Assembly: GCA_947487895.1 (NCBI GenBank)
Contig: CANKYF010000011.1
Location: forward strand, 1 to 64,000
Direction of reading: 5' to 3'
Source of the DNA: an uncultured Flavobacteriaceae bacterium
Lineage (GTDB): Bacteria > Bacteroidota > Bacteroidia > Flavobacteriales > Flavobacteriaceae
Length of the DNA stretch: 64,000 nucleotides
In this document: in pieces, positions 26,146 to 55,897 of the stretch
How positions within the stretch are numbered: the first letter of the stretch is position 1
Layout: each line of letters starts with the position of its first letter
Position numbers and translations under genes: made by a program
Notes under the pieces: generated by a model
What the model was told of the DNA's origin: nothing
Database searches by the model: none
Seen by the model: the letters and a program-made list of their open reading frames with translations, nothing else

Positions 26146-27169
26146 AAAAAGCCTAAGTCAGAACTCGATTTATAAAATTATTAAAGACTCCAAAGGAGAT
26201 ATGTGGATAGGCACTTGGGCTGGCAGCGTTAATTATTTTGACAGGAGTTATGCTATTTTTGATAATATAATATCCGGTGATGGTGAGAATACGCTTAATT
26301 ACAATATTGTTAGTGGAATAGTTGAAGACCGATATGAAAATCTGTGGATAGAAACTGAAGGAGGAGGTATAAATTACTACGACAAGGAAAAAAAGAAGTT
26401 TACCTACTATTTGTATGATCCAAATGATGAAAAAAGTGTATCCTCCAACAACATAAAGTCAATACTAAAGGATAAAAAAGGAAATTTATGGATTGGGACT
26501 CATGATAATGGATTAAACTTTTTAGATACAGGTAAAACTACCATACAGTTTGAGAGAATTAATTCCCGTAATCAAAACTCAAAATTGCTCTCGAATTATA
26601 AAATTTTATCCTTGTTTAAAGATGCAAATGAAAATATTTGGATAGGAACGTTGGCCAGAGGGTTACTGTTATATGATACCAAATTAAAAATACTGCGAAA
26701 GATAGGTGATACCAATGAATCCATTCAATGCATTATTGCAGCAAGTGATCAAAACCAGATTATTATTGGAGAATCTGACGAATTGAAAATGTTGACTCAA
26801 AACATGGCGACAGAATGGGCCAAACACAATATACAGATCAATGGTATTGGACCAGGTTATTTTGCGACCTCCCAAACAGAACCTATACGGGTAGATGGCC
26901 ATCCGTTCAATGAGTTTATATTGAACCGTACCCCTGCGGCCAAATGGGTAAACCCTGATGATCTTGCGGGAGCTACCATATTTTTGGCATCACGGGCAAG
27001 CGATTTTGTCAATGGGCATATTTTATATGTTGATGGTGGTATTTTGGCCACTATTGGTAAATCTTCCAGCGAAAATTAACCAGTATGCCCACAATCTGTT
27101 TTTTAACTATTGCCCTTTTGGTTCTGTATATACAATAAAAAGAAGACAATTAGTTGAGGAACTACGCAG
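26146..27169 (+). pseudogene. Chimeric relic: fragment of HTCS regulator copy fused in frame to C-terminal part of KduD-like SDR copy (ORF 26201-27079)
   Basis: 26146-~26785 closely matches 44142-44785 and ~26786-27169 closely matches 49730-50114; junction at shared GGATTGAAAA. Confidence 0.9.
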
Positions 27170-27356
27170 TCAGGTTTTGGATTTAAAATATTTGATTTCT
27201 GTGTTGGATGCACCAACTAATACTGTTTTTCTTTTACATATTTTAACAGCTCTATTTGATTTAGGGTATCTATGGTGTCTTTTATCGTGCTTTATATTTA
27301 CTTGGATTAAGCAATCTCCTTGACATCAAGTTGATCAAAACCTTACACAATAAACA

Positions 27357-38345: not shown

Positions 38346-41300
38346 ATGAGAAGAAAACTATTTTTTATGGTGATCCTGTCCTTTCTAGGGGCTTATAGTG
38401 TTATAAGTCAAACCTTCCTTCAGGATGCAGGCGCGGGAATCACCCAACCGCTGGTAGATGATTTGGATTATATTGCTCCATTATCTATGGATTTTGATGA
38501 TCGCAATAGGCCATACATGATAAACAATGTGCTGTATCCAGGAATGTCCGCCAATGAATTGTATCGGGTACGAACGCTTAGGAACGGGGTATGGGAATTC
38601 TTTTCATACAGGACCGCAATAGAAGCGGAATTGAACCCCGGAGAGAGCTTGGATTTTAATATTACCGATTCAGATCGTCTAAGATTTGTAAGGGATGGAG
38701 AAATGACGATGGATGGGTATAACAATTTATATGCAATCATTACGGTCAAAGTTGCCAATGGTTCCTCTTCAAGCCGGGAGTTTATGATATTATATGCCAG
38801 TGGCATAGGTGAGGATAATTTTAATGGCAGCTTCAAAGTACACCGTTTGCCTCCAGGAACTACGCAGGCAGAATTAGAGGTTAGGACAAGTTTCAATGAT
38901 TTTACTAACCATCCCCCAGTAATAATGTATATTAGTGACAGGGTCAACAACATATATCCTAGTGGTCCTAGTTGGTTATTTGATATTTGGGGTAATATGA
39001 ATATTATAGCCGTAGACTGGACTGCAAACAGGGAAGATTTGGACTTAAGTTCGGTAATTCAAGTAAGTGATAGGTCGGGCTTCCTAAACAACCATTCGGG
39101 TGGTGGAAGTTATGCTGTAACAAAGGGAGATACCACTTTCTTCACCTGGTTGAGGCATCCTGTAGATCCAGAAGTAGATGATGACGGTGAAAGTGTGATT
39201 TTTGTAAATTCACTGAATAGGAATGCAAAAACAATAGGATCCAACTTTGCATTGCATGTACACCCAGAAGGTAGAGCCAATTCCCATCATCAACCTGCAA
39301 TCGCTATTGATGAATCAAATTTTATTCATGTCTTAACTGGGTCTCATACACGTAACGGGTTTTTATACAGTAAAACCTTGAATCCTTTAGATATTAGCTC
39401 TTGGACCCCAGAGGTAGAGGTGGGAACAGATAGAACATACGCAGCATTACTAATTGATAATTTGGGCGTTATGTACGCACCTTATAGAGGTGATAGACCA
39501 TACCGACAGTATATGCAGACTGGAGATGTGGTCAATGGGTTAAGCGGTGAAGGAGAATTGTTCATAGATAATCCGCCTTGTGATGATATTTATCGTGCGT
39601 TTTACAATAAACTGTATAAGGATAAACCATCAGGAGGCAACGATCGGGTTTATATGAGTTGGAGTACAAATTGTAATGCTTCTGAGACCCGTACGGATTT
39701 TTATAGGGCTATGGCATTTACAGATGATCAAGGCGGTTCATGGAGAATTCCAACCCGATATGATTTATCGAGCAGGAATAATGAAGGAAAATCGGTACAG
39801 CGAATCACTTTTGACCCTGTATTACCGTCTTCTAATGCTTTTGATATTAATGCTGTTAGCGACGTATCCTTACCAGTAACCTATGAAATAATCAGTGGAA
39901 ATAATATTGCTACTATTTCTGGGAATACTATTACACCTATAGGTGCAGGACAAATTGTGGTAAGTGCAAGTAATAATGGAAACAACACCTACTATGGTGA
40001 CTTTGTAACTACGGTCATTAACATAGGCGGAGGCAGTGGTTCAGAAAACACCCTTACTCCTGTGGCAGATGCCTTTGTAAGGAATGGTTCTTCTGCCAAT
40101 AGTAATTTTGGGAGTGACAGTAGATTGATAGTTAAGAATAACGGTTCCAATTTCACCCGTGAGAGCTACCTTCGTTTCGATTTATCGGGTATCCAAGGTT
40201 CTATCAACAGTGCCCGTTTGGAGTTGGTTCCAGAGAGTTCCACTTCGCCCGGTTCTACGGACATCCAGTTGAGGTACGTTTCCAATGACAGTTGGAGCGA
40301 AAGCGGTATTACATGGAACAACAAGCCTGGAGCGTCTACGGTTCTTGATACAGAGACGGGCAGTAGTTCCGTCATGGTCTTTGACATAACGGATCAGGTA
40401 CGAACCGAACTATCGGGCGATGGCCAGATATCGTTACGTTTGCAATCCACGAATTCAGGAGATTTTTCCATTGTATATAGTAGTAGAGAAGCAGCGTCTA
40501 ACCTGCGTCCAAGATTGGTGATCAGTGTGCAGCCTGTATTAGAAAATACCCTTACTCCTGTGGCAGATGCCTTTGTAAGGAATGGTTCTTCTGCCAATAG
40601 TAATTTTGGTAGTGACAGTAGATTGATAGTTAAGAACAACGGTTCCAATTTCACCCGTGAGAGCTACCTTCGTTTCGATTTATCGGGTATCCAAGGTTCT
40701 ATCAACAGTGCCCGTTTGGAGTTGGTTCCAGAGAGTTCCACTTCGCCTGGTTCTACGGACATCCAGTTGAGGTACGTTTCCAATGACAGTTGGAGCGAAA
40801 GCGGCATTACATGGAACAACAAGCCTGGAGCGTCTACGGTTCTCGATACAGAGACAGGCAGTAGCTCCGTAATGGTCTTTGACATAACGGATCAGGTGCG
40901 AACCGAACTATCGGGCGATGGGCAGATATCGTTACGTTTGCAATCCACGAATTCAGGGAATTTTTCCATCGTATATAGTAGTAGGGAAGCAGCGTCTAAC
41001 CTGCGTCCAAGATTGGTGATCAGTGTGCAGCCTGTGTCAGAAAACACCCTTACCCCTGAGGCCGATGCTTTTGTACGGGACGGTAGTTTTTCCAGCGATA
41101 ATTTTGGTAGTGACAGCCGATTGATAGTCAAGAACGATGCGCTTGGGTTTAAGCGTGAGAGTTATCTACGATTTGATTTGTCCTCCGTTCAAGGTACGAT
41201 AACCAGTGCCAGGTTGGAGATGACGGTAGAAAATTCTGGCTCTCCCGGTTCCACGGATATGAGATTAAGGTTTGTTTCCGATGATAGTTGGAGCGAATCC

Positions 41301-42335
41301 GGTATAACGTGGCTCAATAAGCCTGGAGCTACCACTGACCTGGACACACAACAGGGCAATGGTTCTGCAATGAGTTTTGATGTAACGCAACAGGCAGAGA
41401 CCGAGCGTTTGGGCGACGGCAAACTTTCTCTAAGGTTTCAATCTACCAATGAGGGCAACTTTTCAGTAAGCTACAATAGCAAAGAGGCTTCAATGGCAGG
41501 TTTAAGACCAAGGCTGGTTATAACAGTTGTGTCGCCATCAGGAAGTGCCTTGGTACCTGAGGCCGATGCTTTTGTACGGGACGGTAGTTTTTCCAGCGAT
41601 AATTTTGGTAGTGACAGCCGATTGATAGTCAAGAACGATGCGCTTGGGTTTAAACGTGAGAGCTATCTACGATTTGATTTGTCCTCCGTTCAAGGTACGA
41701 TAACCAGTGCGAGTTTGGAGATGACGGTAGAAAATTCTGGTTCTCCGAGTTCCACGGATATGAGATTAAGGTTTGTTTCTGATGATAGTTGGAGCGAATC
41801 CGGTATAACGTGGCTCAACAAGCCTGGAGCTACCACTGACCTGGACACACAACAGGGGAATGGTTCTACAATGAGTTTTGATGTAACGCAACAGGCAGAG
41901 GCAGAGCGTTTGGGCGACGGCAAACTTTCTCTAAGATTTCAATCTACCAATGAGGGTAATTTTTCAGTAAGCTACAATAGTAGAGAGGTTTCAACGGCAA
42001 GTTTAAGACCAAGGCTAATTATTCAAACGTCTTCTGCAACAACTTTAGCTTTTAGACAGGAAAGCTTAGGGGAGAAAGAGGTTTTAAAAGAGCAACCACT
42101 CTCTCAAGAGTTTTCACTTTACCCAAATCCAGTTGTAGATATAATGAACGTTACATCTGATCAAGTAATACAAAGAGTTATGGTAATAGGTTTGTCAGGT
42201 CAAAAGGTAATGGAATTGAACAACCTAAATGCCAAATCCATGCAGGTTGATACTAGAACATTGCCAAGTGGTATCTATGTTTTAAAATTGATAGATGAAA
42301 CAGGTGCTGAACGTAACCGAAAATTTATAAAATAG
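38346..42335 (+). CDS. Secreted BNR_4-type beta-propeller protein (candidate polysaccharide lyase) with four tandem DNRLRE/CBM96-like domains and T9SS C-terminal sorting domain
   Basis: Signal peptide; propeller motifs (ANSHHQPAIAIDESNFIHVLTGSHTRN); four repeats of DAFVRxGS...FGSDSRLIVKN...RESYLRFDLS; C-terminal LYPNPVVDIMNV...LPSGIYVLKLI. Confidence 0.8.
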   Translation: MRRKLFFMVILSFLGAYSVISQTFLQDAGAGITQPLVDDLDYIAPLSMDFDDRNRPYMINNVLYPGMSANELYRVRTLRNGVWEFFSYRTAIEAELNPGESLDFNITDSDRLRFVRDGEMTMDGYNNLYAIITVKVANGSSSSREFMILYASGIGEDNFNGSFKVHRLPPGTTQAELEVRTSFNDFTNHPPVIMYISDRVNNIYPSGPSWLFDIWGNMNIIAVDWTANREDLDLSSVIQVSDRSGFLNNHSGGGSYAVTKGDTTFFTWLRHPVDPEVDDDGESVIFVNSLNRNAKTIGSNFALHVHPEGRANSHHQPAIAIDESNFIHVLTGSHTRNGFLYSKTLNPLDISSWTPEVEVGTDRTYAALLIDNLGVMYAPYRGDRPYRQYMQTGDVVNGLSGEGELFIDNPPCDDIYRAFYNKLYKDKPSGGNDRVYMSWSTNCNASETRTDFYRAMAFTDDQGGSWRIPTRYDLSSRNNEGKSVQRITFDPVLPSSNAFDINAVSDVSLPVTYEIISGNNIATISGNTITPIGAGQIVVSASNNGNNTYYGDFVTTVINIGGGSGSENTLTPVADAFVRNGSSANSNFGSDSRLIVKNNGSNFTRESYLRFDLSGIQGSINSARLELVPESSTSPGSTDIQLRYVSNDSWSESGITWNNKPGASTVLDTETGSSSVMVFDITDQVRTELSGDGQISLRLQSTNSGDFSIVYSSREAASNLRPRLVISVQPVLENTLTPVADAFVRNGSSANSNFGSDSRLIVKNNGSNFTRESYLRFDLSGIQGSINSARLELVPESSTSPGSTDIQLRYVSNDSWSESGITWNNKPGASTVLDTETGSSSVMVFDITDQVRTELSGDGQISLRLQSTNSGNFSIVYSSREAASNLRPRLVISVQPVSENTLTPEADAFVRDGSFSSDNFGSDSRLIVKNDALGFKRESYLRFDLSSVQGTITSARLEMTVENSGSPGSTDMRLRFVSDDSWSESGITWLNKPGATTDLDTQQGNGSAMSFDVTQQAETERLGDGKLSLRFQSTNEGNFSVSYNSKEASMAGLRPRLVITVVSPSGSALVPEADAFVRDGSFSSDNFGSDSRLIVKNDALGFKRESYLRFDLSSVQGTITSASLEMTVENSGSPSSTDMRLRFVSDDSWSESGITWLNKPGATTDLDTQQGNGSTMSFDVTQQAEAERLGDGKLSLRFQSTNEGNFSVSYNSREVSTASLRPRLIIQTSSATTLAFRQESLGEKEVLKEQPLSQEFSLYPNPVVDIMNVTSDQVIQRVMVIGLSGQKVMELNNLNAKSMQVDTRTLPSGIYVLKLIDETGAERNRKFIK
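40044..42030 (+). repeat. Four tandem about 500-bp repeats encoding DNRLRE domains, organised A-A'-B-B'
   Basis: Repeat starts at 40044, 40542 and 41040 (498-bp period), then a 501-bp period to the fourth; A/A' and B/B' near identical at DNA level. Confidence 0.92.
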
Positions 42336-43197: not shown

Positions 43198-46100
43198 ATG
43201 AAATTTGATTACAAAATAATTTTGATCATTGCTTTCAACTGTTTTAATGCGTTGGGACAAGAGATTGTCCCCAATCTTAATGATCTAAGTTTTAAGCATA
43301 TATTTTCTAGTGATGGGTTGTCCCAAAGATCTATCAAAGATATATTACAGGATAGTAAAGGGTATTTATGGTTTGGGACTAGAGATGGTCTAAATAAATA
43401 TGATGGAGACAAAATCACGATTTATCGGCACAATTCAGAAGATACAGGAAGCCTTACCCATAGTAGAATTCAATGTTTGTTTGAAGATACAAAAAGCAAT
43501 ATTTGGATTGGAACAAACGAAGGGTTGAATAAATACAATCCCAAAGAAGATAATTTTATCAAATACCAAAGCAACGATAACTTAAAAGAATTGTCAAATA
43601 AAAAAATATGGAGTATTACCCAGTTAAATGATAGTGTTCTTGGCATAGCAACAAACAAAGGTTTGAACTTTGTTGAATTAACCAGCGCCAATAATGACAT
43701 ATCAAGATTTGGTATGGAACATTTGAAAAAGGCGTTCGCAAATAGGAAGGTAAGGAATTTGCTAACTGCAAAAAATGGGGATTTATGGATTTGCACCGTT
43801 GAAGGTATTAGTATCTACAATCCGCAAACAAATAAAATGATAAACATTGAGTACCTTGAGAATTCCATAAAGGAAACATTTCTAAATAACCCACCTGTCT
43901 TATTTGAAGATAAGGAAAGTAATATTTGGTTGGGATACGATAAGGGGTTGGCGATTTTTGACAAAGATCTACGGGTATTCAGTAATTACACGTTCAATAA
44001 AAATACACTTATAAACACAGCAGTACGCTCTATCTGCGAAGATTCGTATGGCAATCTTTGGGTAGGAACTTATGATGGTTTATTTATTTTAAATATGATA
44101 ACCCAAAAGAAGTTTCATGTAAAACACAATAAAAATAATCCAAAAAGCCTAAGTCAGAACTCAATTTATAAAATTATTAAAGACTCCAAAGGAGATATGT
44201 GGATAGGCACTTGGGCGGGCGGCGTTAATTATTTTGACAGGAGTTACGCTATTTTTGACAATATAATATCCGGTGATGGTGAGAATATGCTTAATTACAA
44301 TATTGTTAGTGGAATAGTTGAAGACCGATATGAAAATCTGTGGATAGGAACTGAAGGAGGAGGTATAAATTACTACGACAAGGAAAAAAAGAAGTTTACC
44401 TACTATTTGTATGATCCAAATGATGAAAAAAGTGTATCCTCCAACAACATAAAGTCAATACTAAAGGATAAAAAAGGAAATTTATGGATTGGGACTCATG
44501 ATAATGGATTAAACTTTTTAGATACGAGCAAAACTACCATACAGTTTGAGAGAATCAATTCCCGTAATCAAAACTCAAAATTGCTTTCGGATTATAAAAT
44601 TCTATCCTTGTTTGAAGATGTAAATGAAAATATTTGGATAGGAACGTTGGCCAGAGGTTTACTGTTATATGATACCAAATTAAAAATACTGCGAAAGATA
44701 GGTGATACCAATGAATCTATTCAATGCATTATTGCAGCAAGCAATCAAAACCAGATTATTGTTGGGGGATCTAACGGATTGAAAAAAGTAGATATCAATT
44801 CGCTAGAGGAAGAGAAACTAGAATGGTTAAGCACAAGTAATACCGATTACTTAACGGTTAACTGTATTTTTAGGGATACTGAAAACAATTATTGGATCGG
44901 TACCGAGGGCAGTGGACTTATTCACTATAGATCAAACACAAAAAAACTAACCAAATATGGCGCTATTCAAGGATTGCCCAACGAGATTGTCTATGGAGTT
45001 TTGCAAGATGATAATGGGTATCTCTGGATCAGTACAAACCAAGGGATTAGTAGATTTAATATAGCAACAAAAAAATTTAAGAATTTCACTAAATCAGATG
45101 GGCTACAAAGTAACGAGTTTAACTACCAAGCTTATATCAAGACGTCTAATAGAGAATTGATTTTTGGTGGTGTTGATGGGATTACAATTTTTAATCCGGA
45201 TAAAATAGGTAAAAATAAATTTATTCCTAATGTTGATATTTATGATATCAAAGTGAACAATGAAATTTTTTATGGAACTCATGATAGTATTTCTCCGGTT
45301 ACTTTACAACATGATGAAAATAATTTCACGATTGGTTTTACAGCCCTAAGCTTTTCCCAACCTAGTAAAAATAAATATGCTTACAAATTGGAAGGTTTTG
45401 ATAAGCATTGGACTCATGTTGGAAACAAGAAAACCGCAACCTATACAAATATAAAAGATGGGGATTATGTATTTAAAGTAAAGGCCTCTAATAGTGATGG
45501 GCTATGGAACGAAATGGGTGATTCACTAAGGATAAAAATACATGCTCCCTTATGGGGTACGTGGTGGGCGTATTTAACGTATGGTTTAATCTGCACAGGG
45601 TTGGCATTTTATATGAGATCATTGATTCTGGCAAGGGTTTATGTGAAAAAACAGCTGGAAGAGGAAAGAATTGAAAAAGAAAAGATTGAAGGAATCAATA
45701 AGCTAAAACTTAAATTTTTTACTAATATTTCCCATGAGTTCAGGACACCCCTGACCCTCATTTTAGGTCCACTTCAAAAACTTGCCAGCAATACACGTCA
45801 TGATGAAGAAACGAAAACACAACTACAATTAATTCAAAGAAACGCCAATACACTTTTAGAATTAATCAACCAACTCCTTAATTTTAGAAAAAGTGAAGCA
45901 GGAGAATTAAAATTACAAGTTTCCCAAAACAACATCATAAGCTTTATTGAAGAAATCAAACTCTCTTTTGATGAATTGGCAAAAAGTAGGGACATAAAAT
46001 TTGGTTTTAAGCATAATATGGAAAGAATTGATGTTTGGTTTGATGCTATGGAACTCAAGAAGGTTATAATCAATATCTTATCAAACGCATTTAAATTTAC

Positions 46101-47286
46101 CCCTGATGATGGAGAAATCACTATAAAGGTAGACATGCCAAAACACAGTCCCGATGCTATTGAAATAGCTATTAATGATAGTGGAATAGGTATACCAAAG
46201 GAAAAAATTAAATATATCTTTGACCGTTATTTTCAATTAGGTGTCTCAAAGGGAAAAAGAGCTGGGACCGGTCTAGGTCTTTCTTTATCAAGAGACATTA
46301 TAGAATTGCACAATGGTAACGTAAAGGTAGAAAGTGAAAAAGGTTCAGGGGTAAAATTTATAATCGTATTGCCCTTAGGAAAAGGACATTTAGACCCTGA
46401 AAAGGTAAATATACAACAAGAAGTAGTTCGTAAAGATTCCAAAACCCCAGAAGTAATCTCTTTTCCAGAGATTCCTGATGCAGTGCAAGAGGACGTTCCC
46501 GAAGAGGTTGATAAGTCAAAGTCTACCATATTAATAGTAGAGGACAATAGTCAATTGAGTGGATTTATTAAATCTATTTTTGAAGATCGTTTTAATATAT
46601 ATCAGGCGTACAACGGAAGAGAAGGAATGAATTTTGCGAAAACCAAAAATATTGACCTTATAATTAGCGACATTATGATGCCGTTAATGAACGGTGTCGA
46701 TATGTGTCATAATATAAAATCCAATATAAGAACAAGTCATATTCCAGTTATATTACTTACCGCAAAAACTTCATTGGGCACGCAAAGGGAAAGTTATAAG
46801 ATTGGAGCAGATGCCTATATTACAAAACCATTTGATACGACCATATTAATAAACCAGATAAACAATATCCTTAATCTCAGAAACAATATGATCGAGAAGT
46901 TTAAAAAGGATACCATTTTAACTCCAAAAGAATTGACCTATGTGTCAATGGATGAAAAATTTCTGGAAAAAGCTTTCGAGATTGTTGAGGAATACATGGG
47001 GGATGACAGTTTTAATGCACAGAAATTCACAAATAAAATGGGAGTAAGTAGAACCCTGTTGTACAATAAACTAAAGTTATTGACAGGGCAGTCTTTGACA
47101 GAGTTCATTCGTTTGATTCGATTAAAAAAGGCAGCACAACTTATAGCCAATACAGAGATGAATATTTCTGAAATAGCTTATGAAGTCGGCTTTAATGATT
47201 TAAAATATTTTAGAAAAAACTTTAAAATCGTCTTTAATTCTACCCCTACAGCATATCGAAAGGAAAATAAAGTATTAAATGACTAG
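43198..47286 (+). CDS. Hybrid two-component system regulator (periplasmic beta-propeller, Y_Y_Y, histidine kinase, receiver, AraC HTH)
   Basis: Reg_prop repeats (GYLWFGTRDGLNKYDG), HisKA FFTNISHEFRTPLTLILGPL, HATPase GTGLGLSLSRDI, receiver IIMMPLMNGVDMCHNIK-type DIMMP, AraC C-terminus. Confidence 0.97.
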   Translation: MKFDYKIILIIAFNCFNALGQEIVPNLNDLSFKHIFSSDGLSQRSIKDILQDSKGYLWFGTRDGLNKYDGDKITIYRHNSEDTGSLTHSRIQCLFEDTKSNIWIGTNEGLNKYNPKEDNFIKYQSNDNLKELSNKKIWSITQLNDSVLGIATNKGLNFVELTSANNDISRFGMEHLKKAFANRKVRNLLTAKNGDLWICTVEGISIYNPQTNKMINIEYLENSIKETFLNNPPVLFEDKESNIWLGYDKGLAIFDKDLRVFSNYTFNKNTLINTAVRSICEDSYGNLWVGTYDGLFILNMITQKKFHVKHNKNNPKSLSQNSIYKIIKDSKGDMWIGTWAGGVNYFDRSYAIFDNIISGDGENMLNYNIVSGIVEDRYENLWIGTEGGGINYYDKEKKKFTYYLYDPNDEKSVSSNNIKSILKDKKGNLWIGTHDNGLNFLDTSKTTIQFERINSRNQNSKLLSDYKILSLFEDVNENIWIGTLARGLLLYDTKLKILRKIGDTNESIQCIIAASNQNQIIVGGSNGLKKVDINSLEEEKLEWLSTSNTDYLTVNCIFRDTENNYWIGTEGSGLIHYRSNTKKLTKYGAIQGLPNEIVYGVLQDDNGYLWISTNQGISRFNIATKKFKNFTKSDGLQSNEFNYQAYIKTSNRELIFGGVDGITIFNPDKIGKNKFIPNVDIYDIKVNNEIFYGTHDSISPVTLQHDENNFTIGFTALSFSQPSKNKYAYKLEGFDKHWTHVGNKKTATYTNIKDGDYVFKVKASNSDGLWNEMGDSLRIKIHAPLWGTWWAYLTYGLICTGLAFYMRSLILARVYVKKQLEEERIEKEKIEGINKLKLKFFTNISHEFRTPLTLILGPLQKLASNTRHDEETKTQLQLIQRNANTLLELINQLLNFRKSEAGELKLQVSQNNIISFIEEIKLSFDELAKSRDIKFGFKHNMERIDVWFDAMELKKVIINILSNAFKFTPDDGEITIKVDMPKHSPDAIEIAINDSGIGIPKEKIKYIFDRYFQLGVSKGKRAGTGLGLSLSRDIIELHNGNVKVESEKGSGVKFIIVLPLGKGHLDPEKVNIQQEVVRKDSKTPEVISFPEIPDAVQEDVPEEVDKSKSTILIVEDNSQLSGFIKSIFEDRFNIYQAYNGREGMNFAKTKNIDLIISDIMMPLMNGVDMCHNIKSNIRTSHIPVILLTAKTSLGTQRESYKIGADAYITKPFDTTILINQINNILNLRNNMIEKFKKDTILTPKELTYVSMDEKFLEKAFEIVEEYMGDDSFNAQKFTNKMGVSRTLLYNKLKLLTGQSLTEFIRLIRLKKAAQLIANTEMNISEIAYEVGFNDLKYFRKNFKIVFNSTPTAYRKENKVLND

Positions 47287-47616: not shown

Positions 47617-48867
47617 GTGTTCAATAACTATTGTATGTTTAAAAAATATTTATTCTTTCCATTTATTTATTGTGTATTATGTTTCTCTTGTCAAGAGGGG
47701 CAAAAAGAAAAGGCAATCCCTGAAAAAGAAGTTGATAACAATAATTTTATAGATCAACAACTGGGACATGCTGAAAGACAATTAACCTTATTGTACACTG
47801 AAGCTGAAACGGAAAAAAGAATACCAAGAACCGTAAGCAATAGTAAAATCTATTGGACTAACCCCACTTTTGATTGGACCGAAGGTTTTTTTCCAGGGAC
47901 CTGCTGGTATCTTTATGAATACAGTAAGGATTTAAAATGGAAAAAAGCTGCAGAAACAATGCAGGCGCAATTTGAAATGCATAAATATAAAACGGATAAT
48001 CATGATCTTGGATTCATTTTTAACTGCTCCTATGGAAATGGCTACAGACTTACAAAGAATGAATACTTTAAGCAAGTACTGATTGATGCTGGAAATTCTT
48101 TGTTAACACGCTTTAATCCAACCGTTGGATGTATTCAAAGTTGGGAAGTAACAACAGATTGGCAGGCAGAAAGAGGGTGGGAATATCCTGTTATTATTGA
48201 TAACATGATGAATTTGGAATTGCTTTTTGAATTAAGTGAAATAACGGGAGATCCTAAATATAAGGAAGTGGCCATAGCCCATGCAGATACAACATTGAAA
48301 AATCACTTTCGTCAAGATGGTAGTTCTTATCACGTAATAGATTACGATCCAGAAACAGGGGAGGTTAGAAAAAAAGAAACGGCACAGGGATATGATCATG
48401 AGAGCGCATGGGCCAGAGGACAAGCTTGGGGTTTATATGGTTATACATTGTGTTTTAGATATACCAAAGACAGAAAATATTTAAAGAAAGCAGAAGATAT
48501 TGCAAAATATATATTAGAACATAAAGGGGTTCCCAAAGATGGAGTCCCGTATTGGGATTACAATGCGCCTAACATACCTAATGAGCCAAGAGATGTTTCA
48601 GCGGCTGCTATAACTGTTTCAGCTTTAATAGAATTGGATTGGCATTCATCTGAAAACTATACATCCTCAATTGATAAACTTATGAAATCCATAGCAGGAC
48701 CAATGTACACTGCTAAGTTGGGGCAGAACCATAATTTTTTATTAAAACATAGTGTTGGTAGTATACCACATGGGCATGAAATAGATGTGCCCCTTGTTTA
48801 TGCAGACTACTATTACGTAGAGGCTTTGCTAAGATTACATGCTAGGGAAGGAGAAAGAGAATTATAA
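47617..48867 (+). CDS. GH88 family unsaturated glucuronyl hydrolase
   Basis: Lipobox LCFSC; NHDLGFIFNCSYGNGYRLT, YPVIIDNMMNLELLFE, HESAWARGQAWGLYGYT motifs; start may be 47635. Confidence 0.92.
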   Translation: MFNNYCMFKKYLFFPFIYCVLCFSCQEGQKEKAIPEKEVDNNNFIDQQLGHAERQLTLLYTEAETEKRIPRTVSNSKIYWTNPTFDWTEGFFPGTCWYLYEYSKDLKWKKAAETMQAQFEMHKYKTDNHDLGFIFNCSYGNGYRLTKNEYFKQVLIDAGNSLLTRFNPTVGCIQSWEVTTDWQAERGWEYPVIIDNMMNLELLFELSEITGDPKYKEVAIAHADTTLKNHFRQDGSSYHVIDYDPETGEVRKKETAQGYDHESAWARGQAWGLYGYTLCFRYTKDRKYLKKAEDIAKYILEHKGVPKDGVPYWDYNAPNIPNEPRDVSAAAITVSALIELDWHSSENYTSSIDKLMKSIAGPMYTAKLGQNHNFLLKHSVGSIPHGHEIDVPLVYADYYYVEALLRLHAREGEREL

Positions 48868-48980: not shown

Positions 48981-49226
48981 ATGGTGACAACCTACGAAAC
49001 AAGATATGCGGCAACCCCAAAAGCTGTAAAGGCATACGATACAAATGCCTTACTTGAGGAGTTTTTGATTAATAATTTGATGCAAAACCACCTAGCCGTT
49101 ATCTCTCCCCTTTGGTCCACACACTGCGGTTCTGGAATCTCTAACAACACCTTTATTTGCGCAATGGCAGGTGAAAACTTGCATTATGATGATATGGATA
49201 TAGCAAAAATTAACGATTTACGATAA
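48981..49226 (+). pseudogene. kduI: 5-keto-4-deoxyuronate isomerase (KduI) remnant with internal deletion
   Basis: N-terminus ETRYAATPKAVKAYDTNALLEEFLI joined directly to C-terminus LAVISPLWSTHCGSGISNNTFICAMAGENLHYDDMDIAKINDLR; central cupin core missing. Confidence 0.85.
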
Positions 49227-49228
49227 AC

Positions 49229-50023
49229 ATGGAAAACGAATTATTTGATCTTGTTGGAAAAATTGCCCTTATTACGGGCGGTACACATGGTTTGGGAATG
49301 GCTATGGCCAAAGGCTTGGGAAAGGCTGGCGCCACTATTGTGATTAATGGACATTCTTCCCAACAAAAAATTGATGACGCTCTAGCCATTTACAAAAACG
49401 AGGGTATTAATGCTGTTGGCTATAAGTTTGATGTAACCAATGAAACCGAAGTTGTCTCTAATATAGCCGCTATACAACGTGAAGTGGGGCTAATTGATAT
49501 TTTGGTCAATAATGCGGGTATCATCAAGCGTACGCCATTGGAACATATGGAGGTGGCCGACTTTAAACAAGTCATTGAAGTTGATTTAGTGGCTCCATTC
49601 ATTATGTCTAAACATGTGGTACAGGGAATGATCGAGCGAAAAAGTGGAAAAATCATCAATATCTGTTCAATGATGAGTGAACTTGGGCGCAATACCGTAG
49701 GAGCATATGCTGCAGCCAAAGGAGGATTGAAAATGTTGACTCAAAACATGGCGACAGAATGGGCCAAACACAATATACAGATCAATGGTATTGGGCCAGG
49801 TTATTTTGCCACCTCCCAAACAAAACCTATACGAGTAGATGGCCACCCGTTCAACGAGTTTATATTGAACCGTACTCCTGCAGCCAAATGGGGTAATCCT
49901 GATGATCTTGCGGGAGCTGCTATATTTTTGGCATCACGAGCAAGCGATTTTGTCAATGGACATATTTTATATGTTGATGGTGGTATTTTGGCCACTATTG
50001 GTAAACCTTCTAACGAAAATTAA
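49229..50023 (+). CDS. kduD: SDR oxidoreductase, KduD/gluconate-5-dehydrogenase-like
   Basis: ALITGGTHGLGMAMAKGLGKAGA, NNAGI, YAAAKGG motifs; adjacent to the kduI remnant. Confidence 0.85.
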   Translation: MENELFDLVGKIALITGGTHGLGMAMAKGLGKAGATIVINGHSSQQKIDDALAIYKNEGINAVGYKFDVTNETEVVSNIAAIQREVGLIDILVNNAGIIKRTPLEHMEVADFKQVIEVDLVAPFIMSKHVVQGMIERKSGKIINICSMMSELGRNTVGAYAAAKGGLKMLTQNMATEWAKHNIQINGIGPGYFATSQTKPIRVDGHPFNEFILNRTPAAKWGNPDDLAGAAIFLASRASDFVNGHILYVDGGILATIGKPSNEN

Positions 50024-50240
50024 CCAGTATGACTACAATCCGTTTTTTAACTATTACCCTTTTGGTACTGGATATACAATAAAAAAGTAGACAATTAGTT
50101 GAGGAACTACGCAGCTAATTTTTCGTTTGAAAATTTGAGGTTTTATTATAGTTTCTATAATCAACATACTTTATTAAAGGTATTTAGAAAACACAGTCTG
50201 CCCCTACAATTATACATCAACAAATTCAATATAATTGATC

Positions 50241-51137
50241 CTAGGTAGATTTTGTTAGTGCTATAACTTTGGTCTCCTTGATATATTTTCTATACTCGTT
50301 TGGTCTCATGTTTTTTAGGGATTTAAAAGTCTTAATAAAATGAGACATGCTGTTATAGCCATTAGCATAAGCTATTTCAGAAATACTTAAATCGGTATTC
50401 CTCAAAAGTCTACAAACATTGGCAGTTCTAAGTTCGTTTAAATATAGTTTGAAGGTTTTACGGGTGTGCTTTTTAAAATATCTGCAGAACGCATTTGGTG
50501 TTAAATGTGTTATTTCAGAGAGGTGTTGTACTGTAAGTTCTCTTGTATAGTTTTTAGATATGTAATCTATCGTAGTATTGATTCTCGACAAATTTTTGTC
50601 GGTTATAGAGTAGTTTGTCGAGGTTGAGCTTAAGGTTTTATAGTCTGAATCCCTACTAAGCAGTTCTAGAATTTCAATAAAATGAATTAACCTTAAAGAA
50701 TTGGATAGCGAATTTAAACAAAGTAATTTTTTAAGGGCTCGTTTGGTCGCTTCACTACTAAACAAGATACCCCTTTCCGAATTTGAAATAAGCTTTGAAA
50801 TATTTACCATTTCTGGGGTTTTTAAAAACGACTCACCAAGAAAATTTACATCAAAATGAATTACTATGGCTTCAGCCCTAAGTTGGGATGATGTATCGAA
50901 GTATTTTACATCGTTTTTCCAGCAATGTGGTAAGTTAGGGCCAACCAGTACTAGTTCGCCAGGTGCAAAATTATCAATATTATCCCCTATAAACCTTGTT
51001 CCAGAGCTTTCAATGATATATGTTAATTCCAGTTTGCTATGATAATGAAATGGATTATAAAAATATGGTACCCTTTCATTTACAACATCAAAAGAAACGT
51101 CACTTTTGTTAGGCACTTTTATTAGTTGCGGTTTCAT
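50241..51137 (-). CDS. AraC-family transcriptional regulator with cupin N-terminus
   Basis: N-terminal FHYHSKLELTYI...GELVLVGPNLPHCW, C-terminal double HTH (LSISEIAYANGYNSMSHFIKTFKSLKNMRPNEYRK). Confidence 0.93.
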   Translation of the reverse strand: MKPQLIKVPNKSDVSFDVVNERVPYFYNPFHYHSKLELTYIIESSGTRFIGDNIDNFAPGELVLVGPNLPHCWKNDVKYFDTSSQLRAEAIVIHFDVNFLGESFLKTPEMVNISKLISNSERGILFSSEATKRALKKLLCLNSLSNSLRLIHFIEILELLSRDSDYKTLSSTSTNYSITDKNLSRINTTIDYISKNYTRELTVQHLSEITHLTPNAFCRYFKKHTRKTFKLYLNELRTANVCRLLRNTDLSISEIAYANGYNSMSHFIKTFKSLKNMRPNEYRKYIKETKVIALTKST

Positions 51138-51496
51138 TTTATTGTTTTTTTGAAAGATAAATAATTTTAAATTAATCTAACAAGGCTGTTTATTTTGTTT
51201 CAAATGTTCAGACTTGTTCATGGGTAATTGTATTAAAATGACGCTAAATATTCAATAATTCTATTAAAAAATTACGTTTTAAGATAGTTTAGAGAAATTT
51301 GTAGGTATTCTAGAGGAATATAACCATCACTAGAATTAATACATTTGAATAACCAATTGAACCAAATAAATTCGAGAATTTAACTCTCAATTTTTTTATT
51401 AAAATTTTAATTGCCAATACATTTTTATGGTTTGGATTGATAACATGTCCAGAGTTTAAAAAAAGCGTTGCAATGCATTTAAATGAAGATTAACAT

Positions 51497-52909
51497 ATGA
51501 GCGAAATAATTGAGAATAACAGCAAAAAAGGTGTAAGTACTTATTTGTACTTTATTTGTATTGTAGCCGCCTGTGGAGGGCTTCTTTTTGGTTACGATGC
51601 CGTTGTTGTTTCAGGAACGAATTCACAGGTAGTAAAACAATTTTCTTTTACTAATGCTCAGTTAGGCTTTTACGTAAGCTGTGTGCTTTGGGGGTGTGCG
51701 ATTGGTTCGGGTATTGCAGGCCCATTTTCTGATTCCTTTGGGAGAAAACGTACGTTATTAATTTCATCTGTACTTATTTTTGTGTCGGCAACATGGAGCG
51801 GTTTTGCTCCTAATCCAATACATTTAATTTTAGCACGTCTTTTAGGTGGCTTTGGTATCGGAGCGGCAACTATGGTTTGCCCGTTATATATTTCTGAGGT
51901 CGCCCCAGAGAAGTATCGAGGTCGTATGGTGACACTCTTTCAACTCACTATAACTATGGGTATAGTTATGTGCGTGTTTGCAAACTATGGTATTTTTAAT
52001 TTTGCAATACATAATGCCACGTCAACAACAGTATCTCCATTTTTAAAATGGTTTGCAGTGGATGAAAATTGGCGAGCTATGTTTATGGCAGAAGCACTCC
52101 CAAGCATACTGTTTTTAGTATGTGCTTTTTTTATACCGGAAAGTCCGAGATGGTTAGTAAAAGAAAACAAGGGCTATCAAGCTGAAAGCATCTTAGCTAG
52201 AATAAACGGTACTTTAAGGGCCAAGGAAATAAGAGCTGAAATAGAAGATACTCTAGCTATTGAGTCTTATGTGAAATTTTCCAATCTTTTTAGAGGGCGT
52301 CTTCGTAAACCTTTAATTTTAGGGGTTTTAATTTGTATTTTGTCAGAAGCTTGTGGGGTATCCGTGGTGTTTTATTATGGACCACAAATCTTCGAAAAAG
52401 CAGGGTTTGATTTAGGAGGAGCTTTAGGTGGTTTTGCAAGTATTGCACTAGTAAATTTAGTTGCTACTCTATTTGCATTGGCTTTTGTAGATTCTGTTGG
52501 GCGACGAAAACTTTTGGGTTTTGGTGCTATTGGAGCGTTTTTTAGTCATATTGTCATTGGGCTTTTATTTATGAATGGTGCTATAGGTTGGCCAATTGTA
52601 ATTGCTATTAATGCGTTTGTTGCATTTTTTGCCTGTGCTATAGGCCCTGTGAAATTTGTAATTGTATCAGAAATTTTTCCCAACCAAGTTCGAGGAAAAG
52701 CTATCGCTTTAGCTACCGTTTTTATTTGGGTTACTAGTGCTTTAGTAGCCCAAGTGTTTCCAATAGTGGAAGCAGTAACATCACCAGGAGTTATTTACTT
52801 CTTTTTTGCTGTGGAATTAGTATTGCTATTACTGGTAGTTAAATTCCTAATGCCAGAAACTAAAGGGCGTACCATCGAGGATATAGAACGTTCATGGTTT
52901 AAACATTAA
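51497..52909 (+). CDS. MFS sugar transporter (sugar porter family)
   Basis: [45 protein letters not shown] motifs. Confidence 0.94.
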
Positions 52910-52942
52910 ATTGTAACTTTAATAATATTAATATAAAGTAGA

Positions 52943-53635
52943 ATGAATCTTTGGAAAGATGATAATGAGTTGTTTCAACTTGCAAAAAAAGAGCTTTTTG
53001 TAGCTTTAGTGGGAGATGTTATGGATAAAATGGGGCTTTTGCACCAATTTTTACCGCAACATATAAAACCTTTAAATAGCGATATGGTAGTTATTGGTAG
53101 AGCACTGCCAGTTTTGGAAGCTGATGTTTTTGCTGAAAAATTAGAAGGAACTGAGAACCCAATAATGGCTAAGCCCTTTGGAATTATGTTTGAGGCTTTG
53201 GATAGTCTTAAGAAAAATGAAGTATATATATGTTCGGGGTCATCTTATAACTATGCACTTTGGGGTGGTTTAATGAGTACAAGGGCTATAAAACTAGAAG
53301 CCGCAGGCGTTGTGGTAAATGGCTATTCTAGAGATACCAACGAAATATTGCGATTGGATTTTCCAACATTTGCGGCTGGTACATTTGCACAAGATCAAGG
53401 TCCAAGAGGGAAGGTTATAGATTATGGAATACCTATTGAATTTGGTGGTATACTTGTAAAACCAGGAGATGTGGTTTATGGCGATAGAGATGGTGTTTTA
53501 ATTGTGCCTTCAGAAGCTGTAGAACAAGCCTTTACGTTAGCTTTCGAAAAGGCTAGAGGAGAAAAAAAGGTACAAGAAGCATTAGAGAATGGTATGAGTA
53601 CTGTTGAAGCTTTCGAAACCTTCGGAATTATGTAA
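52943..53635 (+). CDS. RraA-family protein (RraA/HMG-aldolase-like fold)
   Basis: ALVGDVMDKMGL, AAGVVVNGYSRDTNEI, PGDVVYGDRDGVLIVP motifs. Confidence 0.88.
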   Translation: MNLWKDDNELFQLAKKELFVALVGDVMDKMGLLHQFLPQHIKPLNSDMVVIGRALPVLEADVFAEKLEGTENPIMAKPFGIMFEALDSLKKNEVYICSGSSYNYALWGGLMSTRAIKLEAAGVVVNGYSRDTNEILRLDFPTFAAGTFAQDQGPRGKVIDYGIPIEFGGILVKPGDVVYGDRDGVLIVPSEAVEQAFTLAFEKARGEKKVQEALENGMSTVEAFETFGIM

Positions 53636-53645
53636 TACAATACAT

Positions 53646-53927
53646 ATGCCTAATAAAAAAGTGATACTACTAAACCCTAATGACAATGTAGGCATTGTTA
53701 TTTCTAATTTAATTGAAGGGGAAATAATTACAATAAATGATATATCCATTTGGGCAAGTTCTAATATTCCATTTGGCCATAAAATAGCACTTGAAGATTT
53801 GCCTATCGGAAACATTGTCAAAAAGTATGGCGTCGCAATTGGAAAAACTACAACAGATATAAAATCTGGAGATCATGTACATGTGCATAACATAGAAAGT
53901 GTTTACATGAAACAATTCACTAAATAA
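53646..53927 (+). CDS. UxaA-family altronate dehydratase, N-terminal SAF-domain subunit
   Basis: GEIITINDISIWASSNIPFGHKIALEDLPIGNIVKKYGVAIGKTTTDIKSGDHVHVHNI; ORF track extends to 53604 but ATG at 53646 avoids overlap. Confidence 0.88.
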   Translation: MPNKKVILLNPNDNVGIVISNLIEGEIITINDISIWASSNIPFGHKIALEDLPIGNIVKKYGVAIGKTTTDIKSGDHVHVHNIESVYMKQFTK

Positions 53928-53929
53928 TC

Positions 53930-55120
53930 ATGTTAAAAGGCTATTTAAGAAAAGACGGTAAAAAAGGAATTCGCAATTATACGCTAGTTGCCTATACTGT
54001 AGAATGCGCCCATCATGTTGCAAGAGAAATACAGTACGGTTTTAGGGATAAAGGTGTTCATGTGATAGGTTTTCACGGATGTGCTCCAAACGATTATGCT
54101 AACGAAATGATGCAGGCTCTTTGCACACATCCCAATACCGGAGCAGTACTTATTGTGTCTTTGGGGTGTGAAAATCTAAATAAAGAGGCACTTGAAAAAC
54201 ACATAATTGCATCAGGGAGACCAGCAAAAACAATTACTATTCAAGAATCTAAAGGTAGTAGGACATCCATTGATTTAGGAAAGCAATGGATAGAACAACA
54301 ACTTAAAATACTTAATAAACAGCCTTTGGTAGATATGGCTATGGAAGAGTTGGTAGTTGGAACAATTTGCGGGGGATCAGACGCTACAAGCGGCATAACA
54401 GCAAATCCAGTAATAGGAAGAGTTTTTGATAGCGTATTAAGTCAAGGAGCAACTGCAATTTTTGAAGAAACAGGAGAGCTAATAGGTTGTGAGCATATTA
54501 TGGCAGAAAGAGCCACATCGCCACAATTGGCTAAACAATTAGTTAAAACGGTAGATAAGGCAAAAAAATATTATCTAAAAATGGGCTTTGGGAGTTTTTC
54601 TGACGGTAATGCCAAAGGTGGTTTATCAACTATAGAAGAAAAATCTATGGGTGCTTACAGTAAAAGTGGTAATTCCAAAATTTCAGGTATCATAAAACCT
54701 ACAATTCAACCCACAACTAACGGCCTGTATCTGTTAGATGTGGTACCAGATGGCGAACCTATGTTTGGATGGCCTAACGCTAATGATAATGCAGAAATAG
54801 CAGAGTTAATAGCCTGTGGATCTCATGTTGTTCTTTTTTCAACAGGAAGAGGTTCTGTTGTAGGTTCTGCGGTGGCACCAGTTATAAAGGTTTGTGCAAA
54901 TCCTGAAACATATAATAATCTTGCAGAAGATATGGATGTTAACGCAGGGAAAATTTTAAATGGAGAAGCAACATTAGATGAAGTTGCAAAAGAGCTTGAA
55001 GATTGTGTGATAAATGTTGCAAATGGTGGATTGTCCAAATCTGAAGTGCTACTTCATCAAGAATTTCAATTGGCTTATAAAAAATTTAATCAACTAGAAC
55101 CTGGTTGTTTACCAGGATAA
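53930..55120 (+). CDS. UxaA-family altronate/galactarate dehydratase, large C-terminal subunit
   Basis: GCAPNDYANEMMQALCTHPNTGAVLIVSLGCEN, TICGGSDATSGITANPVIGR motifs. Confidence 0.92.
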   Translation: MLKGYLRKDGKKGIRNYTLVAYTVECAHHVAREIQYGFRDKGVHVIGFHGCAPNDYANEMMQALCTHPNTGAVLIVSLGCENLNKEALEKHIIASGRPAKTITIQESKGSRTSIDLGKQWIEQQLKILNKQPLVDMAMEELVVGTICGGSDATSGITANPVIGRVFDSVLSQGATAIFEETGELIGCEHIMAERATSPQLAKQLVKTVDKAKKYYLKMGFGSFSDGNAKGGLSTIEEKSMGAYSKSGNSKISGIIKPTIQPTTNGLYLLDVVPDGEPMFGWPNANDNAEIAELIACGSHVVLFSTGRGSVVGSAVAPVIKVCANPETYNNLAEDMDVNAGKILNGEATLDEVAKELEDCVINVANGGLSKSEVLLHQEFQLAYKKFNQLEPGCLPG

Positions 55121-55132
55121 TATTATAACATA

Positions 55133-55897
55133 ATGAATTTATCACAATTCAGTTTAAAAGGGAAAACAGCTTTAATTACAGGAGGTGGTACAGGTATAGG
55201 TTTAGGAATTGCAAAATCTTATATAGAAGCAGGAGCTATGGTTGCTATTATAGGAAGAACAGAATCTACACTTATTGATGCTTGCGAAACTTTAGGAAAA
55301 TATTCGAAGTATTACGTTTATGATATTACAAATCAATCGGGTATGAAACAATTGATACACCAAATCGAAACAGATTTCGGCTCTATTCATATTCTGGTTA
55401 ATAATGCGGGAATTCATCTAAAAGCTCCAGTTTCTAAAACTACAGATGAAGGTTTTTTGAGTGTCATTCAAACACATTTACTAAGTTCATTTACATTGAG
55501 CAGAGAAGTGATGGAATCTATGAAAAGTAACGGAATTAAAGGTTCTGTGATCATGATTAGTTCAATGACGGGTATTATGGCAATGACACAAGTTGTGGCC
55601 TACACAAGTGCAAAAACAGGTGTGTTAGGGTTAATGAGAGGCTTGTTAGCAGATTATGCCGAGGACGGTATTCGTGTAAATTCCATAGCTCCAGGTTGGA
55701 TAGAATCTAAAATGTTGCACCAAGCTTTGGATAGTGATACGGAACGAAAAAATAAAATTTTAAACAGAATTCCATTTAAATATTTTGGACAGCCAGAAGA
55801 TATTGGTAACGCCGCAGTTTTTCTCGGTTCGGATGCTTCCAAATACGTAAATGGTGTATTGCTACCAGTAGATGGTGGAGCTGCAGTTGGGTTTTAA
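55133..55897 (+). CDS. SDR-family oxidoreductase
   Basis: ALITGGGTGIGLGIAKSYIEAGA, NNAGIHLKAP, YTSAKTG motifs. Confidence 0.92.
   Translation: MNLSQFSLKGKTALITGGGTGIGLGIAKSYIEAGAMVAIIGRTESTLIDACETLGKYSKYYVYDITNQSGMKQLIHQIETDFGSIHILVNNAGIHLKAPVSKTTDEGFLSVIQTHLLSSFTLSREVMESMKSNGIKGSVIMISSMTGIMAMTQVVAYTSAKTGVLGLMRGLLADYAEDGIRVNSIAPGWIESKMLHQALDSDTERKNKILNRIPFKYFGQPEDIGNAAVFLGSDASKYVNGVLLPVDGGAAVGF

Follow-up and report, generated by a model that had tools for sequence, protein, structure and literature searches.

The 81-codon open reading frame (ORF) that stands before kduD in the window, a 64,000-nucleotide stretch of the genome of an uncultured Flavobacteriaceae bacterium, is best explained as a kduI pseudogene. 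We put the probability at about 0.93 that it arose by a deletion at a short repeat and has been tolerated through a second intact kduI in the same genome. The remnant is an ordinary broken spare gene. Its position and those of its neighbors are collected in Table 1.

Table 1. Positions in the window of the kduI remnant and of the locus that contains it.
Feature	Position	Strand	Remarks
PUL block collinear with G223:C29	27260..50070	+	90–95% DNA identity, about 22.8 kb
HTCS, hybrid two-component regulator, intact	43198..47286	+	1362 aa, equal length in G223
GH88/GH105-type unsaturated glucuronyl hydrolase, intact, upstream of remnant	47617..48867	+	Pfam PF07470; intact G223 counterpart
kduI remnant (pseudogene)	48981..49226	+	81 aa, ATG to TAA
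ATGCAAAA, single copy left of 8-bp direct repeat	49080..49087	+	comparison with G223
kduD-type SDR dehydrogenase, intact	49229..50023	+	264 aa; dN/dS 0.07 vs G223

As compared with the intact gene of G223, a member of another genus of the family, the remnant consists of codons 1–35 and 234–279 of a 279-codon kduI joined in frame, and the ATG of kduD at 49229 lies 2 bp past its stop. The KduI profile of NCBIfam, NF002091, matched residues 33–81 of the remnant at profile positions 229–277 (E = 2e-21); the score of 76 bits for these residues only is far under the cut-off of 250 bits for a full-length member. A Pfam search of the 81-aa ORF gave no match. Using the intact KduI of the same genome as a blastp query, a two-piece match to the ORF was obtained with query residues 1–34 and 232–279. 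These results bear out an earlier note on this DNA, which had described an 81-aa ORF fusing the KduI N- and C-termini with the frame and the 2-bp gap to an intact kduD kept. The loss, given there as about 200 central residues including the HxH...E motif, was measured as 198 residues by alignment to the 279-aa G223 homolog.

Relative to KduI proper (5-dehydro-4-deoxy-D-glucuronate isomerase; NF002091; PDB 1XRU, 1X8M), the remnant shares residues 1–35 and 234–279 and the place before kduD. It differs in missing the central residues and in the alteration of conserved residues at its ends. The metal-binding HxH(x4)E motif (PAHVHDRRMEVYFY) sits in the deleted part and is absent from the remnant. 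The remnant still has the histidine of the WS-[IT]-H motif, the residue that in E. coli KduI would act as fourth metal ligand. Among the matches listed, no other of 399 family genomes carries the joined ends (residues 1–81) in one piece. A conserved short KduI common to relatives was also considered and was rejected, as the listed matches elsewhere come either from genes of greater length, whose two ends match separately, or from C-terminal fragments.

The G223 counterpart was found by searching the 399 family genomes. It is a full-length kduI of 279 aa at the same place of a collinear locus, and the matches to remnant residues 1–36 (92% identity) and 33–81 (78%) both lie inside one 282-codon open frame. 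The locus is a polysaccharide-utilization locus (PUL) made up of SusC/SusD, a heparinase II/III-like gene, HTCS, GH88/105, kduI and kduD. Its remaining genes are equal or near-equal in length in the window and in G223, and kduI alone is broken in the window. The best NCBIfam match of the window kduD above cut-off was NF005488, gluconate 5-dehydrogenase, with the kduD model TIGR01832 under its own cut-off. Within the genus of the window, the remaining six genomes gave best matches to kduI/kduD or to the glycoside hydrolase of only 70–74% DNA identity. Set against the 90–95% identity to a different genus, these values suggest that the PUL probably moved between genera and was acquired from outside the genus of the window.

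The shared PUL ends directly after kduD in the window, while G223 has two further genes. Within the block, a 1329-aa protein encoded at 38346–42335 contains long internal direct repeats at 40041–42022, in units of about 0.5 kb that are 72–86% alike. Downstream, a separate cluster at 50241–55897 comprises an AraC regulator, a sugar porter, an RraA-like protein, an SDR and a split altronate/galactarate dehydratase (SAF domain of 107 aa plus 396 aa), and is a probable second uronate-type pathway.

Exactly 594 bp are deleted from the remnant relative to the G223 gene and, because this amounts to 198 codons, the frame is kept. In the intact G223 kduI, the 8-bp repeat ATGCAAAA occurs twice, at positions 100 and 694 of the gene, a distance of 594 bp. 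The single copy in the window has its left flank from the first repeat and its right flank from the second. Junction homology of at least 8 bp occurs in about 0.02% of the possible 300–660 bp deletions in the region and, given this rarity, the repeat very probably mediated the deletion. Replication slippage or short-homology recombination between the two copies would have removed the intervening sequence. Bacterial pseudogenes formed by short-direct-repeat deletion likewise show such a repeat at the joint, of which a single copy survives, and a relaxed pattern of substitution afterwards. The remnant shows no essential difference from them, its deletion happening to be in frame. What marks such pseudogenes was found here in full: an intact counterpart in place (G223:C29), a repeat at the breakpoints and relaxed selection.

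The relaxation was seen in substitutions polarized with G222 as the outgroup. Although the counts are small, the window branch of the remnant carries 10 non-synonymous changes and 2 synonymous ones, compared with 4:13 for kduD on the same branch (Fisher p = 0.002). Site counts give a neutral expectation of about 3.8 non-synonymous changes to 1 synonymous, and the remnant appears to gather amino acid changes at the neutral ratio, without visible constraint. Between the window and G223, dN/dS was 0.26 for the remnant, 0.07 for kduD, 0.15 for GH105 and 0.11 for HTCS. Unpolarized counts gave a weaker result for the remnant against its three neighbors pooled (p = 0.06) and p = 0.01 against kduD alone. 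Conservation of 90% or more marks 37 of the columns compared with 97 intact KduI proteins. The remnant deviates at 7 of these, whereas the intact set deviates at a mean of 0.8 and never at more than 5. Its W258C, Y254N, T251I and R25L changes (G223 numbering) introduce residues that occur in none of the 97. Counting against a pseudogene, the frame is still open, with neither a stop nor an indel. Nevertheless, an open frame is expected: the deletion itself did not shift it and, by our estimate, about 12 random substitutions would leave roughly half of neutral remnants stop-free.

The open frame might also mean that the destroyed enzyme gene has been reused as a translated leader, kept in frame to couple translation to kduD, with ribosomes on its 81 codons handed to the gene downstream. 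The retained frame (594 = 3 × 198) and the 2 bp between the remnant stop and the kduD start are both consistent with such a role. Nevertheless, a deletion is in frame by chance in 1 of 3 cases, here set by the repeat spacing, and an open frame is by itself weak evidence. The gap is inherited, because 1–10 bp is the norm, in most cases, for intact kduI–kduD pairs. Moreover, kduD comes after other genes, with no kduI, in G001, G004 and G005, and the remnant sequence evolves without visible constraint. Reuse as a leader gains no positive support from these data and is considered unlikely, though a weak coupling of translation to kduD would be conceivable, and the decayed pseudogene remains the preferred reading.

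It had been claimed in the earlier note that the canonical isomerase step is apparently missing, and a genome search for another KduI was proposed there as a check. When run, this search contradicted the claim, finding an intact 279-aa KduI on another contig of the same genome (G000:C13:122919-123755). The protein scored 437 bits to NF002091 (cut-off 250) and aligns over its full length with solved KduI structures, the HxH...E motif included. Its gene neighbors, named from reading the translations, are altronate dehydratase (550 aa) and tagaturonate reductase (481 aa), and the cluster reads as a galacturonate cluster. Counterparts of this KduI that are 86–90% identical were found in G001, G004, G005 and G006, all of the same genus. 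In the first three of these genomes, the kduD locus is without an adjoining kduI and kduI is sited elsewhere in the genome, which suggests that supply from a distant site is normal within the genus. The genome also encodes two KDPG/KHG-family aldolases, likely KDPG-type, a later pathway step.

Judged from gene content, the second enzyme could supply soluble isomerase in trans to KduD, and loss of kduI from the PUL would be tolerated because the genome holds another intact copy in the galacturonate cluster. A genome that had lost the KduI step, with the locus making or using a different product, would fit the destruction of kduI here. It is refuted for gene content by the intact KduI with its HxH...E motif, and a missing isomerase step was rejected as very improbable. 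The pathway reading is thereby corrected, in that the loss of kduI leaves the isomerase step in the genome. With a spare gene lost in this way, the remnant offers a clean example of a locus, probably from outside the genus, losing a gene that the host has twice.

An 81-aa protein that folds with a function of its own would draw on the open frame and nothing else. Single-sequence AlphaFold2 gave a mean pLDDT of 49.6, a pTM of 0.23 and no beta structure (a weak result, being obtained without an alignment) and, with substitutions at the neutral ratio, an independent function is highly doubtful. An assembly artefact, in which the assembler had collapsed a full-length kduI at the repeat, would place the breakpoints on a direct repeat as observed, but was rejected as having almost no likelihood, because 8 bp is much too short for assembly collapse and the decay of both ends is not expected of a working gene.

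Broken copies of kduI were also found elsewhere in the family. In G012:C23 (269500-273000), a kduI fragment adjoins an intact kduD, and a transposase-like ORF lies between this fragment and the N-terminal start of the gene. G425:C11 has a lone C-terminal kduI fragment, and the 3.5 kb examined there contains no kduD. A full-length kduI is encoded elsewhere in each of the two genomes, as it is in that of the window. The three differ in the lesion: the G012 copy is split by the transposase-like ORF, the G425 copy is without its N-terminal part, and the window remnant has an internal deletion. With fragments beside full-length copies in G012 and G425, loss of a redundant kduI is thus a recurrent and ordinary event in Flavobacteriaceae.

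Another decayed piece of the PUL lies at 26146–27195 of the window. Its chimeric ORF (26201–27079, 292 aa) runs from an HTCS fragment in frame into the C-terminal third of kduD. The fusion point is a 10-bp word shared by the two genes, GGATTGAAAA, of which one base has since been altered in the fused copy. The piece is 96% identical to 44142–44785 and 92% identical to 49726–50138. G223 has one copy of the locus only; in the window, the locus was probably once duplicated in tandem, and the piece would be what is left of the end of that copy.
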